From positions 1-7,873 of the forward strand of contig JAKANW010000111.1 in assembly GCA_021823555.1 (NCBI GenBank): 7,873 nucleotides of DNA. Reading direction: 5' to 3'. The notes beneath the pieces are model-generated. The model did not search any database, was not told the DNA's origin, and was given only the letters and a program-made list of their open reading frames with translations. The position numbers were made by a program, and so were the translations under genes. Numbering within the stretch: the stretch's first letter is position 1; each line of letters starts with the position of its first letter. This document shows positions 2,125 to 7,873 of this stretch, one piece after another. This stretch comes from Chloroflexota bacterium (lineage in GTDB: Bacteria > Chloroflexota > Anaerolineae > Anaerolineales > Villigracilaceae).

Positions 2125-3678
2125 TTATTCCTTCCTGCCCAGTAAACCGTTCGGGAGAATCAACAGGATGATGACCATCAACAACACCGTGGAAGCGGGC
2201 ACAACTGGCGGCGTGGGCTTAAGGACAATTTCTGTAAATGGGATGGGGATGCCGATCTGCCCATATTTGATGATGAACTGCTGCAGGAGACCCACCAGCA
2301 CCGAACCCAACGCCGCGCCAGGATAACTGGTCAGGCCGCCGATGGCCAGGGCGATCAGCGCGTCGAGCAGCAGGTTCTCGCCCATGGCGTTGGAGAGTCC
2401 CATGGAGGGCGCGGCCAACGCGCCGCCGAGGGCAGCCAGTCCCACGCCGAGAGCGAAGACCATACTGAAAACGCGGCGCACATTGATGCCGAGCGCTTCG
2501 ACCATCTCGCGGTCCTGCACGCCGGCGCGGATGGTCATACCCAGCCGCGTGCGCTGGAGCAAAATCCAAATGGAGATGAGCACAACCAGCCCGACCAGCG
2601 GGAGGAAGATCTCGTTGTAAACACGCACTCGCCCGCCCAAGAGAAAGATCGTCGAGCAATGACCCTGCCACCAGGTGGAAAAACTGGTGGCAGGGCAGTC
2701 CCCTCCGGTGCCATTGAAAAACGGCGGCTTGGGCATCACGAATTCGGGACGGCCCCAAACGGCGCGCACCATTTCGATGCCGATGGCGCTCAAGCCAAGC
2801 GTGAGCATGAGCTGGTAGATCGGGCGGCTATACAGCGGACGGATGAGAGTCGCTTCCATCAAAGCACCCAGCCCCGCCCCACTCAACGTGGCGACAATGA
2901 CCGCGATCAGGAACAACCAGTCCGGGCTAAGCTTGATGAGGAATTGTGTGATCGCATCATTGAAGGAGCAGCCAATCAAGGCGACGAGAAGTAGAGTCAC
3001 AAACTCCGTAAATGATTTCCACGACAGGCGCGTTGTCCGCTGCACATCGCTCCCAAACAACGACAGGCCAAAGGCGCCCAACAGGCTGGCGAGCAATAAA
3101 CCACCCAGCGCAAGGAAAGGAGAAATCTTATCAAAAGTCACAACCGGCGGCGGCAGGCGCGTGGCCTGGTCGGCCATGAACGAATACGTGACCGGGCTTT
3201 GGGCGTAGTTGTCCAGGTTCCAGATGGCAATCGGATATCGAGGCAGGATCAGGACAAACAGGAGGATGGAGACGAGGATCAAAGCCCAGGGGAGGATCCG
3301 CTTCATTCGCACCGAGAGCTGGATACGGGTGAAAAGAAGCGGGTACACGTCCCGAAGCGCGAACCCGCTCATCGCCAGGGCAAAGGGTGTCAGTAAATCC
3401 ACAAAGGTATCAGGCCGAACATAGATCGTCCAGCCGATATAGGCGCCGATCATGAAAAGCGTGCCGTGCGCCAGGTTGAGCACATCGAGCAGGCCAAAGA
3501 TGAGTGAGAAACCCGAAGCAACCAGGAAGGTGACCGCCCCAACCGATAGGCCGCGCAAGAGCGTAATGACAAAATCCTGAGTGCTCATCCCCTGCGCGGC
3601 GATTGCAAAGAGGAAGGCAATGACCGCCAGTGTGATAAGGAACACGAGGTTTTTGCGGAAGAAGGTTGATAAATTCAT
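2125..3678 (-). CDS. livH: Branched-chain amino acid-type ABC transporter permease LivH, with a large membrane insertion
   Basis: This is the first channel subunit of the HAAT importer. At 517 residues it is far longer than typical LivH proteins (about 290-310). The conserved N-terminal core is present (VASGFSLIFGLLDVLNLAHG near 53-72, then MIGAYIGW), and family sequence resumes at about 265-282 (LSGAGLGALMEATLIRPLY). Between them, about residues 88-252 are extra and hold several hydrophobic stretches (roughly 128-146, 186-208, 224-250). The EAA-like loop IRAGVQDREMVEALGINV is at 383-400, and the C-terminal membrane segments and LILPNGLLGRKE tail look normal. A second, smaller outside loop (about 311-355) has Cys328 and Cys341. 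The start is ATG 3678 with AAAGGA upstream, 15 bp after livF. The reading frame is uninterrupted, so the insertion looks genuine rather than an assembly error. Confidence 0.9.
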   Translation of the reverse strand: MNLSTFFRKNLVFLITLAVIAFLFAIAAQGMSTQDFVITLLRGLSVGAVTFLVASGFSLIFGLLDVLNLAHGTLFMIGAYIGWTIYVRPDTFVDLLTPFALAMSGFALRDVYPLLFTRIQLSVRMKRILPWALILVSILLFVLILPRYPIAIWNLDNYAQSPVTYSFMADQATRLPPPVVTFDKISPFLALGGLLLASLLGAFGLSLFGSDVQRTTRLSWKSFTEFVTLLLVALIGCSFNDAITQFLIKLSPDWLFLIAVIVATLSGAGLGALMEATLIRPLYSRPIYQLMLTLGLSAIGIEMVRAVWGRPEFVMPKPPFFNGTGGDCPATSFSTWWQGHCSTIFLLGGRVRVYNEIFLPLVGLVVLISIWILLQRTRLGMTIRAGVQDREMVEALGINVRRVFSMVFALGVGLAALGGALAAPSMGLSNAMGENLLLDALIALAIGGLTSYPGAALGSVLVGLLQQFIIKYGQIGIPIPFTEIVLKPTPPVVPASTVLLMVIILLILPNGLLGRKE

Positions 3679-3693
3679 CAGGGATCCTTTGCG

Positions 3694-4398
3694 CTACGCG
3701 GCGCCCAGGTAACGATGGATGGCAGCTTTGTCTTCCACCAGATCTTTCATCGCGCCAGCCTTCACGGAACGGCCTTCTTCGATGATGACGTAATACTCTG
3801 CCAGTCTGCTGGCCACCAGGAAATTCTGTTCGACCAATACCACTGTGCTTTCCCTGGAAAGCTGGCGGATGGCATCCATCATGTGTTCGATGATGACAGG
3901 GGCAAGCCCCTCGCTGGGTTCGTCAATGAGCAGGAGGTGGTTATCGGCCACGAGGGCGCGTGCAATGGCGAGCATTTGCTGCTGCCCACCGGAAAGACTC
4001 GTGCCGGGCAGGGCAATGAGACGCTGGAGGTCGGGGAAGAGATCGAAGATGAAATCGCGTTTGCGGGCATAGTCATCTTTTTGGCGTTCTGCCAACTTGA
4101 GATTTTCCTCCACGCTCAGGTCGCGGAAAATGGCGCGGTGTTCAGGGACAAAGCCAATGCCCAGCGCGGCAATGTCGAATGAATGCATACCCTGCAAATC
4201 AAGGTCCTCAAAAACAACCTTGCCCTGGCGCGGGGGAGTCAACCCAAGGATGGTCTTGAGCGTGGTGGTCTTGCCCGCGCCGTTGCGTCCCAGCAGGGCG
4301 GTAATGGAACCTTTGGGTACGCGCAGATCCACGCCCTGCAGGATGTGGTATTGCCCAATGAAGGTATGGATGCCTTGAACGTCGAGGATATATTTCAT
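3694..4398 (-). CDS. livF: Branched-chain amino acid-type ABC transporter ATPase LivF
   Basis: This cytoplasmic ATPase of 234 residues, normal LivF length, dimerises with LivG and drives the LivH/LivM channel. Walker A is GRNGAGKTT (37-45), the Q-loop position carries Glu86 in VPEHRAIF, the ABC signature is LSGGQQQ (135-141) and Walker B is LLLIDEP (155-161). The switch residue is Gln191 in VLVEQN, where most ABC ATPases have His; this Gln and the Q-loop Glu are usual in LivF proteins and help separate it from LivG. The ATG at 4398 has a GAGG at short spacing (four bases). The 82-bp gap to livG is almost filled by a hairpin-forming heptamer repeat, while livH follows after only 15 bp. Confidence 0.94.
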   Translation of the reverse strand: MKYILDVQGIHTFIGQYHILQGVDLRVPKGSITALLGRNGAGKTTTLKTILGLTPPRQGKVVFEDLDLQGMHSFDIAALGIGFVPEHRAIFRDLSVEENLKLAERQKDDYARKRDFIFDLFPDLQRLIALPGTSLSGGQQQMLAIARALVADNHLLLIDEPSEGLAPVIIEHMMDAIRQLSRESTVVLVEQNFLVASRLAEYYVIIEEGRSVKAGAMKDLVEDKAAIHRYLGAA

Positions 4399-4410: not shown

Positions 4411-4477
4411 CAGTGGGAAGTGGGTAGTGAGAAGTGGATGGTTTTCCTGCCCACCATCCACTGTCCACTTTCCACTG
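4411..4477. repeat. Heptamer-unit inverted repeat between livG and livF (element A)
   Basis: The plus-strand left arm (4411-4442) is four imperfect 7-nt units of form NAGTGGR (CAGTGGG, AAGTGGG, TAGTGAG, AAGTGGA) plus TGGT. The right arm (4453-4477), read on the minus strand, is three such units (CAGTGGA, AAGTGGA, CAGTGGA) plus TGGT. The arms pair with about one unit left over, around a 10-nt loop. The element starts three bases after the livG stop and ends twelve bases before the livF ATG, so in mRNA it would be a strong intercistronic hairpin. It shares a 19-nt stretch with one mismatch with the element at 7747-7797. Confidence 0.85.
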
Positions 4478-4480
4478 TTC

Positions 4481-5251
4481 TCATACATTCAACTCATACA
4501 AGCCGCCAAGATATGCGCTCTGCACTTCCTTGTTGGCGGCAATCCCAGCAGGCGCGCCCTCGGCCAGGACTTTGCCCAAGTGCATGACGGTGATGGCATC
4601 CGAAACACTCATCACCACATTCATGTTGTGTTCCACCAGCATGACGGTTTTGTTGCCTGCTTTTTGAATTTCCTGGATCAAGGCGATCAATTCCGGGACC
4701 TGTTCCGCGGCCATGCCCGCGGTCGGCTCATCCAACAAAAGAACTTCGGGGTCGGAAGCCAGGATCATGCCCAATTCCAATTTGCGCTGGTCGCCATGCG
4801 GAAGGGTGCGGGCGGGCGCCTGGGCGCGTTCTTTCAAGCCAACTTTTTCGATGACTTCCCAGGCTTGCTCCTGGTAACGCTTGAAACGTGAAGCGTCCAG
4901 CCAAAACTTGAAGTTGTCGCTTCCAAGCGCCTGCGAAGCGAGGCGGATATTTTCAAGAACCGTCAGGTTTGGGAAAATATTGGTGATCTGGAAGGAGCGC
5001 CCGATGCCAAAATGAATGGTGCGATGGACAGGCTGGTGGGTAATGTCGCGTCCCTTGAAAATAACATGTCCGCTGGTGGGTTCAAGATTGCCGCTGAGCA
5101 AATTAAAAAACGTGGTCTTGCCCGCGCCGTTCGGGCCAATGATGGCGTGCAATGAGTTCTTGCGGACCTTGATGCTGACATTGTCCACCGCGACCAATGC
5201 ACCAAAGTGTTTGCTTAGATTGATGGTTTCGAAAATAATGTCACTTTGCAT
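4481..5251 (-). CDS. livG: Branched-chain amino acid-type ABC transporter ATPase LivG
   Basis: This cytoplasmic ATPase is the partner of LivF, 256 residues with the start chosen here. Walker A is GPNGAGKTT (39-47), the Q-loop glutamine is Gln88 in RSFQIT, Walker B is LLLDEP (171-176) followed by TAGM, and the switch histidine is His208 in VEHNM. The signature region reads LPHGDQRKLELG (150-161) instead of LSGGQ; degenerate signatures such as SYGQQ or HGDQ are normal in LivG-type subunits. The C-terminal extension AYLGGLYELNV is also LivG-like. The frame could start at a TTG at 5263, but ATG 5251 has GGAAG five bases upstream, and the TTG overlaps that site, so the ATG is preferred. It lies downstream of the binding-protein gene across a 130-bp spacer with two hairpins. 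Confidence 0.94.
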   Translation of the reverse strand: MQSDIIFETINLSKHFGALVAVDNVSIKVRKNSLHAIIGPNGAGKTTFFNLLSGNLEPTSGHVIFKGRDITHQPVHRTIHFGIGRSFQITNIFPNLTVLENIRLASQALGSDNFKFWLDASRFKRYQEQAWEVIEKVGLKERAQAPARTLPHGDQRKLELGMILASDPEVLLLDEPTAGMAAEQVPELIALIQEIQKAGNKTVMLVEHNMNVVMSVSDAITVMHLGKVLAEGAPAGIAANKEVQSAYLGGLYELNV

Positions 5252-5256
5252 GGCGT

Positions 5257-5261
5257 CTTCC
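5257..5261 (-). promoter_or_regulatory. Ribosome binding site that fixes the livG start
   Basis: GGAAG on the minus strand lies five bases before ATG 5251. The alternative TTG codon (5261-5263) shares its last base with this site and has no equally good site of its own, so the shorter protein is preferred. Confidence 0.6.
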
Positions 5262-5270
5262 AAATGCGAC

Positions 5271-5328
5271 CATAGACTGTGGACGGCAGACTGTTGGTGC
5301 TTTCGCGGTCCACGGTCTACCGTCCTGC
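5271..5328. repeat. Heptamer-unit inverted repeat upstream of livG (element B)
   Basis: Plus-strand units CATAGAC, TGTGGAC and GGCAGAC (5271-5291) face minus-strand units GCAGGAC, GGTAGAC and CGTGGAC (5308-5328). All six are seven bases long and end in RGAC. The best pairing is 5268-5287 against 5305-5324, 20 positions with four mismatches. The architecture matches element A but the unit sequence differs. It sits about 20 bases upstream of the livG start. Confidence 0.75.
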
Positions 5329-5339
5329 TATTGATCGAA

Positions 5340-5365
5340 CCCTGAGGGCCTGGCGACCCTCAGGG
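5340..5365 (-). terminator. Stem-loop after the binding-protein gene, possible attenuator or mRNA 3' stabiliser
   Basis: A perfect 9-bp GC-rich stem, CCCTGAGGG (5340-5348) with CCCTCAGGG (5357-5365), encloses an 8-nt loop. It lies 17 bases after the binding-protein stop. On the minus strand it is followed by TTCGATC rather than a U-run, so it is not a classical full terminator. In transporter operons such a hairpin commonly protects the abundant binding-protein message or reduces transcription of the distal genes; that role is inferred here. Confidence 0.6.
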
Positions 5366-5381
5366 ACTCATTGTATCAGAA

Positions 5382-6758
5382 CTACTTGCCGCTCAAATTG
5401 CCGTATGGCAAAGCGCCGCAGCGATCTTTCAAAGCCTCGGGCAGCAAGCAGGGCGGTTCGGGGCGGGTCGTATCCACATATTCGTAGAAGTTGGCATTCG
5501 GGTCGGTCAGGTTGGCCAGCTTCAGGATGTACATATCCTGGATGGCAACATGATCCTCCGGGCGGATCTGGATCGCGCCCTTCGGGCCGTCGAAGGAAAG
5601 CCCTTCCATCGCCTTGACCAGTGTGTCGCCATTGACGTCGCCGTTGGTCTTCTTGATGGCTGCAACGATCATCAGGGCAGCATTCATGCCATCTGCATCG
5701 AACAGGTCGGGCATCACGCCATAGCGCGCCTTATCCTGAGCGACCAAAAAATCGTTGATGGGATTCTTCGGAGCGCTGTAGTGATAGAGAATACCTGCCG
5801 TTGTGCCAATGGCATTGGAGAAGAAGGTTGGCATCAAGGTATTGTCAATAAAGGTCGCGCCCAGCGCCATCTTGCCGGTCACACCCTGATCCTTGGCAGC
5901 CTGCACCAAAGACACAAAACCGGAACCGGCCCAGGTCACGATGTAGGCTTCCGCGCCGGACTTGGCAATCTGGTCCATGTAGGGAGTGAAGTCCGTTGTG
6001 GTGGTGGGAGCGAAGATGTCGTCCGCAACGAAGGTGCCGCCATCCAGCGTGCAGGCATCGCGGAAGGCATCGGCAGAACCGTGACCGAAGGCGTAATCCG
6101 GCGCGATCTGCACGAAGGTCTTGTATTGCTTGGTCAACGCCAGGCATTCGTTCATGGCGTCCTGGTAGTTATTGCGGCTGGTGCGGAAAGTGTACTCGTT
6201 AAAGCCCGAGCCGGTGATGTCATTGGCAGCGGCGGGGGCAACGATCAGCGGGATCTTGTTCTGAAGGGCAATGCCCTGCAGGGTGGCCGTCGCAGCAGAC
6301 GAAACGGTCCCAACCAGGATGTTCACCTTTTCCACGTCAATCAATTCATTGGCGACGGTGGTGGTGGTATCGGGGGTGCTGGCATCGTCACGAACAAAGA
6401 CCTGGATCTCGCAATTATCGAGTTTGAACGCGTTTTCCTGGGCCTGCTTGAAATCAAACTTGTCGCCGGCCGAACCGGCCGCGCCGGTGGCGTATTCCAT
6501 GCCGAGCATGAACGAGCGCGGGATCATCGTACCGTAAATGGCCAGCGCGCCGGACAGGTCAGTGATCAAACCGACCTTGATCGGCTGGGCGCAGGTCAAA
6601 CCTGTGGGAGCCTGGGTCGGCGCTGCGGTTGCGGCGGGCGGCTGGGTGGCTACGGGAGCTGACGTCGGCGCGGCAGTGGGGGTGGCGGCTGGAGCGCAGG
6701 CGGCCAGGATCATGGACATGGTCACCAACGCAAAGGCTAACGTACGTAAAGCTTTCAT
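5382..6758 (-). CDS. Solute-binding lipoprotein of a HAAT-family ABC importer (LivJ/LivK-like)
   Basis: This 458-residue extracytoplasmic receptor captures the ligand and hands it to LivH/LivM. Residues 1-20 are a lipoprotein signal peptide with lipobox LAAC, Cys21 being the lipidated residue. A low-complexity Ala/Pro/Thr linker (about 22-52) tethers the domain. The mature part is a type I periplasmic-binding fold: IKVGLITDLSGALAIYG (about 60-76), the inter-lobe region around VGTVSSAATATLQGIALQNKIP (149-170) and a second lobe from about 212 (YKTFVQIAPDYAFG). Six cysteines remain in the mature domain (56, 116, 205, 236, 437, 447), possibly three disulphides. The ATG at 6758 has an excellent GGAGGAG site seven bases upstream. 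It is the first gene of the transporter set. Family members bind branched-chain or other amino acids, amides, urea or aromatic acids; I cannot assign the ligand and so give no symbol. Confidence 0.92.
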   Translation of the reverse strand: MKALRTLAFALVTMSMILAACAPAATPTAAPTSAPVATQPPAATAAPTQAPTGLTCAQPIKVGLITDLSGALAIYGTMIPRSFMLGMEYATGAAGSAGDKFDFKQAQENAFKLDNCEIQVFVRDDASTPDTTTTVANELIDVEKVNILVGTVSSAATATLQGIALQNKIPLIVAPAAANDITGSGFNEYTFRTSRNNYQDAMNECLALTKQYKTFVQIAPDYAFGHGSADAFRDACTLDGGTFVADDIFAPTTTTDFTPYMDQIAKSGAEAYIVTWAGSGFVSLVQAAKDQGVTGKMALGATFIDNTLMPTFFSNAIGTTAGILYHYSAPKNPINDFLVAQDKARYGVMPDLFDADGMNAALMIVAAIKKTNGDVNGDTLVKAMEGLSFDGPKGAIQIRPEDHVAIQDMYILKLANLTDPNANFYEYVDTTRPEPPCLLPEALKDRCGALPYGNLSGK

Positions 6759-6765
6759 GGGGTTA

Positions 6766-6772
6766 CTCCTCC
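6766..6772 (-). promoter_or_regulatory. Strong ribosome binding site of the binding-protein gene
   Basis: GGAGGAG on the minus strand, seven bases before ATG 6758, is the best Shine-Dalgarno match ahead of any gene in the window. This fits the excess of binding protein over membrane subunits usually seen in such importers. Confidence 0.8.
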
Positions 6773-6802
6773 AGAGATGTTTGATAGATTGGGTGGCGAT
6801 TC

Positions 6803-6860
6803 AAAATAAGTGATTTGCTTCGTGGGGCAGACGTTATTCCGCGCTGCATCACTTACTTTT
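6803..6860. repeat. AT-rich inverted repeat in the spacer upstream of the transporter genes
   Basis: The arms are AAAATAAGTGAT (6803-6814) and ATCACTTACTTTT (6848-6860), pairing over 12 bp with one bulged base; the core TAAGTGAT/ATCACTTA is perfect. The arms are 33 bp apart, so the two cores are about 41 bp centre to centre, close to four helical turns. The 160-bp spacer 6759-6918 must hold any promoter for the transporter set, but I could not identify a convincing -35/-10 pair. The repeat may be a pair of operator half-sites or a weak hairpin ending the hydrolase transcript. Confidence 0.45.
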
Positions 6861-6918
6861 CATCCACTACCGATGGATATTTAGCGAAACCAAAAGGTGT
6901 ATTTTTGAACAGCACCTC

Positions 6919-7725
6919 CTATCCTGTAAATTCGATCACGGCTTGCGAGGCGGCTTCCGGCATCTCAAGCGGGAAGAAATGCCCCGCATCAGGGAATATC
7001 ACAACTTTGCTGTCCGCGATCTGCTTCGCCAGCAGGTCCGCGTTTTCGGGGGGCACCACTTTATCGTGCGCGCCGAACAGGATCAGGGTCGGGACGGTGA
7101 GGCGGGGCAGTTTCGTCTCGAAGGCCGCGGCCTCAGGGATCAGCGAAAGCCCAATCGCCATCTGCGCCTGATACGGCGCCGGGTCAATTGGATTCGCCAC
7201 ACGCCACCTGACCCACTCTTCGATAACATCTGGATTCTTTTCCGCCCAGCCCGGCGCGGTGCTAACGACCAATCCGTTCTTGAAACGCGTCAGCGGATCG
7301 CCTGTCACATCGGTGAGAACTTTCAGCGCTTCGGGCGTGACCGGGATGTGGCGCGGCCCACCGAAGTTGGTCGAACACAAAATGAGTTTTTCCACCCTTT
7401 GCGGAAAATCGAGCGCCATCGCCTGGGCGATAAACCCACCCATCGAATGGCCCATAACAATTGCCTTTTCAATGCCCAGCGCGCCAAGCAGACTAGCAGT
7501 ATCGGCAGCCAGCATCTGCGCGCTGTACGGCCCGCCAGGTTTATCGCTCTGGCCGACGCCGCGATTATCGAAAGTGACGACCTGAAAACGTTCTTTCAAA
7601 AATGGAACCATGCGATGCCACTGCCACAGCGGGTAACCAATGCCGGAAATCAGCACGAGCGGTTTGCCCGCGCCGCCGTAGGTTTCATAGTAGAGTTCGA
7701 TATCGCCGGATCTGATTTTAGGCAT
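6919..7725 (-). CDS. Alpha/beta hydrolase (3-oxoadipate enol-lactonase-like)
   Basis: This is a 268-residue cytoplasmic serine hydrolase of the alpha/beta fold; no signal peptide is visible. The nucleophile elbow is GHSMGG (92-97) with Ser94, the acid is Asp221 in GAHDKVVPPENA, and the base is His249 in DAGHFFPLEMPE. The oxyanion-hole strand is VLISGIGYPLWQW (24-36), and FDNRGVGQSD (52-61) is the usual strand-4 turn. Residues about 120-200 form the cap that sets substrate choice. Length and motifs match enol-lactonase, esterase and C-C hydrolase members, which sequence alone does not separate. The frame extends to an ATG at 7770, but those 15 extra residues come from the upstream repeat; ATG 7725 has GGAG five bases upstream and begins the conserved MPKIRSGDIELYYE. 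It lies between the acyl-CoA synthetase and the transporter, all on one strand. Confidence 0.88.
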   Translation of the reverse strand: MPKIRSGDIELYYETYGGAGKPLVLISGIGYPLWQWHRMVPFLKERFQVVTFDNRGVGQSDKPGGPYSAQMLAADTASLLGALGIEKAIVMGHSMGGFIAQAMALDFPQRVEKLILCSTNFGGPRHIPVTPEALKVLTDVTGDPLTRFKNGLVVSTAPGWAEKNPDVIEEWVRWRVANPIDPAPYQAQMAIGLSLIPEAAAFETKLPRLTVPTLILFGAHDKVVPPENADLLAKQIADSKVVIFPDAGHFFPLEMPEAASQAVIEFTG

Positions 7726-7746
7726 AAGATCTCCAGAGGAAGCGGA

Positions 7747-7797
7747 TAGTTGAAAGTGGATAGAAACCACCCACTACTCACTGTCCACTATCCACTG
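7747..7797. repeat. Heptamer-unit inverted repeat between acyl-CoA synthetase and hydrolase (element C)
   Basis: Read on the minus strand from 7797, four 7-nt units follow one another (CAGTGGA, TAGTGGA, CAGTGAG, TAGTGGG) and then TGG. The plus-strand left arm has units TAGTTGA, AAGTGGA and TAGAAAC (7747-7767). The best stem is AGTGGATAG (7755-7763) with CTATCCACT (7788-7796), nine perfect pairs. CACTGTCCACTATCCACTG (7779-7797) matches 4459-4477 in element A with one mismatch. The right part overlaps the 3' end of the acyl-CoA synthetase gene. Confidence 0.85.
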
Positions 7798-7873
7798 CTT
7801 TCTCAACTCCGCCTTCATTACTTTCCCATACGGCGAATATGGCAACGCATCCACAAACTCCACGCGCTTGGGG
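7774..7873 (-). CDS. AMP-forming acyl-CoA synthetase, C-terminal fragment
   Basis: Only the last 32 codons are in the window; translation from 7872 down gives an open frame ending in TAG at 7774-7776. It begins PKRVEFVDALPYSPYGKVMK and continues AELRK. This is the C-terminal signature of ANL-superfamily acid-CoA ligases: the PKxVEFVDxLP strand followed by P-x-x-GK-x-x-x-xELR, in which the Lys after Gly is the catalytic residue for adenylation. Such enzymes activate a carboxylic acid with ATP to an acyl-AMP and transfer it to coenzyme A in the cytoplasm. The last eight residues (QWIVDSE preceded by Lys) and the stop come from a heptamer repeat rather than from conserved family sequence. The specific acid cannot be told from this fragment. 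It lies 48 bp upstream of the hydrolase on the same strand. Confidence 0.85.
   Translation of the reverse strand, partial: PKRVEFVDALPYSPYGKVMKAELRKQWIVDSE

Follow-up and report, generated by a model that had tools for sequence, protein, structure and literature searches.

In filamentous cyanobacteria, the STRR repeats are tandem heptanucleotides in direct arrays. Heptamer repeats have been known since at least 2007 to be overrepresented in bacterial genomes, without a demonstrated explanation (as cited in the accessible parts of PMC4679880 and PMC4692102), and tandem heptanucleotides of Calothrix are cited in the latter. The closest described repeats are GGGAATC in Xanthomonas and GGGGA(C/T)T in Nostoc/Anabaena (Rehm et al., 2015, PMC4692102). 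In the available passages of that paper these tend to be G-rich on the coding strand shortly downstream of stop codons and on the non-coding strand shortly upstream of start codons, vary in length between close species and were studied as G-quadruplex formers, with no function established. Three inverted arrays of imperfect heptamers, E1, E2 and E3, were analyzed here in a stretch of 7,873 nt from a Chloroflexota bacterium (Villigracilaceae; GenBank assembly GCA_021823555.1, contig JAKANW010000111.1), the whole of which is referred to as the window:

4411 to 4477, E1: inverted array of AGTGGNN / NNCCACT heptamers, between livG (upstream) and livF
5271 to 5328, E2: inverted array of GGACGGT/AGACCGT-type heptamers with weaker periodicity, between the periplasmic substrate-binding protein (SBP) gene and livG
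7747 to 7797, E3: inverted array of AGTGGNN / NNCCACT heptamers at the ligase/hydrolase boundary, half within the ligase gene

As far as the available passages of PMC4692102 describe them, the Xanthomonas repeats share with these arrays imperfect 7-nt tandem units that are mostly intergenic (a likeness to which E2 conforms only weakly) and occur as convergent pairs, 70 in Xcc and 75 in Xac, as inverted pairs with the G-rich arm first also occur here. The arrays are a variant of these already known inverted heptamer pairs; the initial annotation had known of no named family of the inverted form, and the Xanthomonas pairs, unnamed, were already described. Within the same passages PMC4692102 gives one unit type per organism, whereas several vocabularies of units were found here per genome, differing at orthologous junctions; most vocabularies here do not carry a GGG run in every unit, and polarity was counted here across vocabularies against a hairpin control. 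The TAACTGA repeats of Beggiatoaceae, cyanobacteria and Bacteroidetes (MacGregor, 2015, PMC4679880) are likewise 7 nt long, intergenic and near start codons, but in the accessible text they are direct repeats of one heptamer, with one indirect repeat, for which a role in translation was proposed. Arrays of the ACTGATAACTG type occur in loci L006 and L046. The heptanucleotide elements of Geobacter metallireducens (PMC2700814) are multicopy runs of four or five tandem heptamers between and within genes, but form one BLAST-alignable family of 49 copies, with no inverted design or polarity in the passages available. As far as the open-licence PubMed Central literature was searched, polarity across vocabularies was not found; new against that literature are one polarity shared by many vocabularies and set against a hairpin control, the replacement of elements between orthologous junctions, an operon bias with numbers and an array serving as a gene's stop.

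Strand polarity is the most unusual property of the arrays. The layout reported in the initial annotation, inverted, was borne out, and strand polarity went unmentioned there. Pooling the window with 80 loci and with stretches from four genomes (contig C22 of genome G003, which contains locus L004, was left out) gave a set of 99 paired-arm elements; G exceeded C in the 5' arm in 94 of these, was below it in 3 and equalled it in 2. Heptamer hairpins in the spacers of six genomes were G-first over C-first in the ratio 42:7, with 6 equal, against 160:168, with 52 equal, for the other hairpins of the same spacer set, which rules out the polarity as a general property of hairpins. Other hairpins with strongly skewed arms gave G 20 : C 16. 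A purine-first bias was common to other hairpins too (40:6), so that only the G-against-C and keto biases are special to the arrays. Arrays of 8-10-nt units were G-first 19:12, which was not significant, and 8:1 among strongly skewed arms. Whole-genome patterns were counted as raw matches, which overlap within elements and come in part from related genomes that are not independent. The pattern AGTGG..CCACT gave 57 matches in 7 of 301 Chloroflexota genomes and its C-first mirror was present in none of the 301; a second family, GGTGA..TCACC, gave 35 G-first matches against 1 in the same genomes with reversed-control patterns. In 40 genomes a looser GTG-core pattern matched 596 times G-first and 9 times C-first (23 vs 4 genomes), and a TGGT-core pattern 63 and 6 times (17 vs 4 genomes).

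The polarity was also related to the neighboring genes. Co-directional spacers with at least two arms numbered 39 and were G-first/C-last in 29, the reverse in 2 and mixed in 8. Single arms nearer the start codon were C-rich on the coding strand in 38 cases vs 9. All 19 arms in 16 convergent or divergent spacers had the G-strand facing outward, the skew being only 1 in four of these arms. In two-arm elements with the G-rich arm first, the 5'-to-3' direction of each arm's G-rich strand leads out of the neighboring gene; on the whole, the polarity rule concerns the boundary between gene and spacer rather than which way transcription runs. Shielding of C-rich RNA from Rho was rejected as its origin, single C-rich arms beside start codons being common, and so was an origin from stop codons, some vocabularies carrying stops in the other arm on inspection of the element sequences.

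Periodicity in the window was clear for E1, with lag-7 self-match segments at 4412-4436 (score 12) and 4451-4476 (score 13), and for E3, at 7766-7796 (score 12). The best lag-7 score in 300 second-order Markov simulations of the window was at least 11 in 7, at least 12 in 2 and at least 13 in none. Self-match over the six arms was 0.47-0.76 at lag 7 vs 0.06-0.45 at the other lags from 3 to 13, and 0.38-0.79 at the harmonic lag 14. E2 was weaker, with a score of 8; it was missed by Tandem Repeats Finder, is absent from the list of window lag-7 segments scoring at least 9, and is backed by relatives (L004, L012, L013, L019 and L020) in which the SBP/livG spacer carries the same GACCGTGGACGG-type element with scores of 12-17. 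Stretches a few bases wider than E1, E2 and E3 gave hairpin folds of -39.0, -30.7 and -22.9 kcal/mol (RNA parameters, plus strand). The three foldable 7-nt inverted arrays proposed in the initial annotation were accordingly clear for E1 and E3, and for E2 were weaker and supported by relatives. The G-rich arm of E1 comes first whichever strand is read, and E1 and E3 have in common a 33-nt stretch that is 82% identical.

The term spacer elements, used in the initial annotation for all three, holds for E1 and E2, which lie between genes, and not for E3. The ligase stop codon (7774-7776) lies inside E3, so that this array is not purely spacer, and 7777-7797 encodes the end of ...RKQWIVDSE*. The ligase of L004 similarly ends WIVGSG*. 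The stop codon lay within an array in 16 of 28 ligase orthologs, and several array-free or less arrayed relatives have different ligase ends, for example REKFVK*; arrays therefore invade coding ends. No arrays were present at the tight junctions livM/livH (2 nt) and livH/livF (15 nt), as had been reported.

A binding-protein scan gave 80 loci, nearly all titled Chloroflexi, which with the window made 81 sequences of 1.10 Mb. Lag-7 self-match segments with a score of at least 14 numbered 144, against 1 in first-order shuffles, and the same scan at the other lags from 4 to 15 gave 0-23 segments, except for 67 at the harmonic 14. Looser criteria gave 169 heptamer elements in 48 of the 81 sequences. 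The arrays are thus widespread, being carried by many Chloroflexota, and far above shuffled sequence, and the recurrence of the 7-nt inverted layout with different units, which the initial annotation had proposed and which isolation or an equal frequency in shuffles would have contradicted, was upheld. Vocabularies were many, with several per genome (AGTGGAT, AGTGATC, GTGTCAA, GAAAGAA, GGTAATT, AAGGATG, CGATATT and others), and differed between junctions and between species. The 25 AGTGG elements that were parsed had 2-9 heptamers per arm, drawn from a vocabulary of roughly [A/G]GTG[G/A][A/G/T][T/C/A], in which a GGG run depends on position 6 and is missing from many units. Inverted heptamer arrays were especially abundant in genomes G039, G014, G037, G016 and G018 (58-196 raw GTG-core matches) and also in G208 (39 and 30 raw matches for two patterns).

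Position was analyzed in samples of six genomes totalling 2.43 Mb, each covering part of its genome, with genes in fetched stretches called by a custom hexamer script. Lag-7 arrays lay mostly in spacers in G003 (67/104), G019 (20/26), G002 (30/42), G016 (51/73) and G018 (24/35), G006 being the exception with only 9/25; bases outside called genes made up 11-21% of the samples. Mostly intergenic segments summed over the six genomes numbered 201 at lag 7, 67 at lag 8 and 37 at lag 9, and 1, 7, 10, 11 and 11 at lags 5, 6, 10, 11 and 12; within spacers lag 7 led in five of the six genomes. Heptamer arrays occupied 144 of 972 co-directional, 7 of 146 convergent and 5 of 157 divergent spacers (p 4e-4 and 1e-5), and at gaps of 60-300 nt 109 of 687, 6 of 97 and 5 of 106, respectively (p 0.009 and 0.0015). 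Two narrower length bins went in the same direction, with p <0.05 in only one of four comparisons. The highest share was that of the G016 sample, with an array in 36 of 122 co-directional spacers. At the threshold used, 154 co-directional spacers bore arrays, which overlapped the 3' end of the upstream gene in 42 and the downstream start in 11. Only 39 of the 154 had two or more arms and 115 were one-armed, so the two-arm inverted form, initially described as the design shared by the three window elements, is the minority form.

For the junction table, loci with either gene missing or a gap above 400 nt were dropped, as were ligases below 55% identity; the automatic spacer comparison was made for pairs with livG identity of at least.83 and spacers of up to 260 nt. 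An orthologous junction may hold another array, another hairpin or nothing. Exact 7-nt unit differences were seen between L003 and L062 at SBP/livG and between L010 and L007 at HYD1/THIO. Six close relatives aligned by junction showed an array vs a short spacer at LIG1/HYD1, and different elements where the stop codon and Shine-Dalgarno site were conserved. With flanks.90-.93 identical, the comparisons (n = 26) comprised 9 homologous spacers, 6 pairs both short, 5 unrelated, 3 with one empty and 3 unclear. The livG/livF and SBP/livG spacers of L009 and L010 have by eye different elements under conserved ends, the flanking 300 nt being.927-.973 identical; their alignment score was only intermediate (z 5.2, and 4.1 in a repeat; classes 'unclear' and 'unrelated'), and this pair was dropped as proof of block replacement. 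The claim of block turnover therefore rests on L006/L017 at SBP-livG, with unrelated spacers (z -0.6) between flanks.930 identical, and on L012/L021 at livG-livF, with spacers of 13 vs 72 nt between flanks.905 identical.

Elements of other kinds were seen at some of these junctions. The LIG1/HYD1 junction of L010 is filled by a GTAGGGGCGACC..GGTCGCCCCTAC palindrome, and the THIO/DUF35 junction of L003, L009 and L010 holds inverted arrays of 8-9-nt units (CACAAAGG/CACGAAGG). At LIG2/HYD2 a longer palindromic insert (GGTGGTTGAGCAGCC.. / GGTGGTCGAGTAGCC..) lies between the arms of a GAAAGAA array in L005 (3230-3443) and L030 (2403-2629), as if inserted into its loop.

A near-copy, defined as at least 80% of the element length identical, was found in the sampled DNA of the same genome for 13 of 140 heptamer elements vs 68 of 403 other spacer hairpins (Fisher p 0.04), the 13 matches listed being 24-33 nt long. 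Simple copying therefore does not explain the arrays, in line with the initial annotation, which had suggested a generating mechanism in its place. Arrays within 5 kb were more alike in vocabulary than distant ones (permutation p 0.004 in G003, 0.030 in G006, 0.002 in G002), and in the 4.5-Mb G003 all 6 AGTGG-triplet matches fell at C22:173.5-181.1 kb, in or just upstream of the operon. AGTGG units across the arms of one element were alike at 4.81 of 7 positions vs 4.90 for other genomes and junctions, and over the 99 elements unit order was mirrored between arms only marginally (summed z 1.93, mean p 0.69). Templated copying of one arm from the other through a hairpin was rejected on these two results. 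The hairpin as a designed object, as it had initially been presented, is likewise not upheld, given arms no more alike than other genomes' arrays, the lack of covariation in the closest orthologs (below) and the prevalence of single arms.

The explanation favored here, to which a probability of roughly 0.4 is given, is that these are DNA-level arrays of short units at gene boundaries, produced by slippage and local recombination and tolerated mainly in operons, and are neither RNA genes nor copies of a mobile hairpin. Each arm would consist of a small number of heptamers taken from the vocabulary of its family. Arrays would grow by replication slippage in a register of about 7 nt, to which the exact unit steps point, would reach nearby sites through recombination or template switching among arrays of the same family, and would be lost or replaced as blocks. 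They may persist mainly inside operons because promoters and terminators would not tolerate them, which is consistent with the bias seen, and any effect on mRNA, as an intercistronic stem-loop, would be secondary.

A number of results weigh against this explanation. The local recombination is inferred and was not directly observed, and the polarity does not follow from slippage alone. Adjacent AGTGG units are alike at 5.06 of 7 positions vs 4.97 for distant ones (25 elements, 7 sequences), which counts against pure slippage, since that predicts much greater likeness. Single arms nearest the stop codon are only weakly G-rich on the coding strand (G 36 : C 28, 3 equal), and both heptamer hairpins that the hairpin finder located in divergent spacers are C-first. 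In G019 spacers lag 8 ties with lag 7 (20 each), and arrays in that genome did not cluster locally to a significant degree (p 0.136). The difference in near-copies is modest (9% vs 17%) and absent in G016 (2/34 vs 2/26). No turnover appeared among the most similar flanks: the 12 comparisons with flanks at least.93 identical, of which at least 6 come from array-free genomes, comprised 7 homologous spacers, 4 pairs of short ones, 1 unclear case and no unrelated spacers. In a wider ortholog alignment of 8 sequences (A2), 5 of 25 stem pairs had compensated changes, with an unfavorable covariation term (+0.91), and selection for an effect on RNA may underlie the operon bias.

Such an effect is the substance of the reading of the arrays as intercistronic RNA stem-loops, kept to stabilize, process or insulate parts of the operon transcript in the manner of REP/BIME hairpins. 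The strong folds of the three window elements and the bias to co-directional spacers agree with it, as do the aligned relatives, in which many arrays occupy the gap from the stop codon to the ribosome-binding site, where other hairpins can stand in their place. Strong folding (z below -5) was somewhat commoner in two-arm spacers, at a fraction of 0.11 of 18 vs 0.01 of 70 array-free ones. The median spacer, however, showed no extra folding (z -1.63 to -1.81 with arrays vs -1.65 without; one-arm vs none p 0.79; groups of up to 70 spacers), in a test that is weak because dinucleotide shuffles of arrays also fold. None of 25 pairs in the closest ortholog set (A1, 5 sequences) had changed on both sides (covariation term +1.4), and the 5 of 25 in A2 came with the unfavorable term given above. 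The arms have their vocabulary in common and not their register, most array-bearing co-directional spacers (115/154) are single-armed, and close relatives carry array-free versions of the junction. The T-run expected of an intrinsic terminator does not directly follow E1, E2 or E3 in the coding direction, and a T-run was flagged in 4 of 55 heptamer hairpins in the six-genome spacers; Rfam covariance models gave two matches on the window, far below the gathering score, both with E 0.39. RNA-level selection on the stems is not favored, and the stem-loop reading is considered rather unlikely.

In arrays of binding sites, each heptamer would be read by a protein or RNA, and purifying selection on a degenerate motif would keep its core while the rest drifts; this would account for units that behave almost as if drawn from one motif, with little trace of the neighbor or arm, and for the same grammar in both arms (C at position 6 in 1-2%, G at position 7 in 5-8%, the core being fixed by the search expression). 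We know of no reader of heptamer arrays, none having been searched for, and many readers would be needed, since unrelated vocabularies abound within a single genome and, across species, at a single junction; loss and replacement between relatives also speak against sites under selection. This reading is doubtful, a little more so than that of stem-loops, even though the Geobacter heptamer arrays are annotated as putative global regulatory elements in the available passages of PMC2700814. Telomere-like healing of ends is improbable by comparison: GT-rich 7-nt units would be added to 3' ends at a break in the spacer and the ends joined head to head. Head-to-head telomere fusions have a layout and polarity like those of the arrays, with the G-rich strand outward from both sides; arms alike in vocabulary that are not mirror copies would follow, and single arms would be one-sided events. 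Put more generally, and held to be just as improbable, a process with telomere-like polarity would add GT-rich units of about 7 letters at spacer ends or nicks and rejoin them head to head, leaving polar heptamer scars whose many vocabularies would be the drifting templates of the adding process. To our knowledge no enzyme adds GT-rich 7-nt units; Ku matches were found in 0 of 25 genomes searched, and neither the number of vocabularies per genome nor the operon bias is predicted. Least probable of all, and barely credible, is that a Y1 (RAYT) transposase moves the arrays as mobile hairpins of REPIN/MITE type, or that a reverse transcriptase retro-copies them. REP sequences are related to one another, reach high copy numbers and are linked to RAYT transposases. 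The arrays resemble REP, REPIN and BIME elements as dispersed intergenic palindromes, as far as the accessible parts of PMC2817692, PMC3116915, PMC3733652 and PMC8266576 go; their dispersal between genes, their presence or absence between relatives and Y1_Tnp matches in 39 of 40 genomes would suit mobility. Against this, near-identical copies are few (13/140), the array-rich draft genome G016 (36/122 co-directional spacers) has no Y1_Tnp (PF01797) match, and RVT_1 is without a match in 12 of 40 genomes, including the array-bearing G001, G006 and G017. Transposase, reverse transcriptase and Ku were each rejected as required enzymes on their lack of matches in array-bearing drafts, absences that are provisional because the completeness of these assemblies is unstated.

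The genes of the window lie on the minus strand in the order acyl-CoA ligase (end only), hydrolase, periplasmic binding protein, livG, livF, livH, livM and galactokinase:

7774 to 7872, minus strand: 3' end of the acyl-CoA ligase gene, with stop codon at 7774-7776 and the last residues, WIVDSE, within E3
6919 to 7725, minus strand: alpha/beta hydrolase gene
5382 to 6758, minus strand: periplasmic substrate-binding protein (SBP; livJ-like, Peripla_BP_6)
4481 to 5251, minus strand: livG, ABC ATPase
3694 to 4398, minus strand: livF, ABC ATPase
2125 to 3678, minus strand: livH, permease, 517 aa
1067 to 2122, minus strand: livM, permease

The nearest relatives at livG+livF among the fetched loci were L005 (81.7% nucleotide identity) and L004 (81.0%), both Chloroflexi metagenome-assembled genomes. 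The best match of the permease domain in LivH (517 aa, 2125-3678) starts only at residue 243, and LivH therefore carries a long extra stretch. A terminator-like stem (CCCTGAGGG..CCCTCAGGG) lies at 5336-5370, directly after the binding-protein gene, where several relatives retain ACAATGAGT or similar with a different stem (CCCTAAAGG type vs GACTGRGA type). At one loop of the LIG1 ligase a heptamer-periodic coding stretch was observed, with units differing by species, at these positions:

L004 408-440, L026 366-396, L058 4077-4109, L062 538-572
L069 4971-5002, L070 4674-4713, L076 4776-4804

Little is read into this array-like internal stretch, since array-free relatives encode similar residues there.

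For the Chloroflexota that carry the arrays, a polarity common to different vocabularies and absent from the other hairpins of the sampled spacers is a sharp constraint on any mechanism. Loss and replacement at flanks 90-93% identical suggest that births and losses of arrays may be caught in strain-level data. With the stop codon inside an array in 16 of 28 ligase orthologs, the arrays also matter for annotation.

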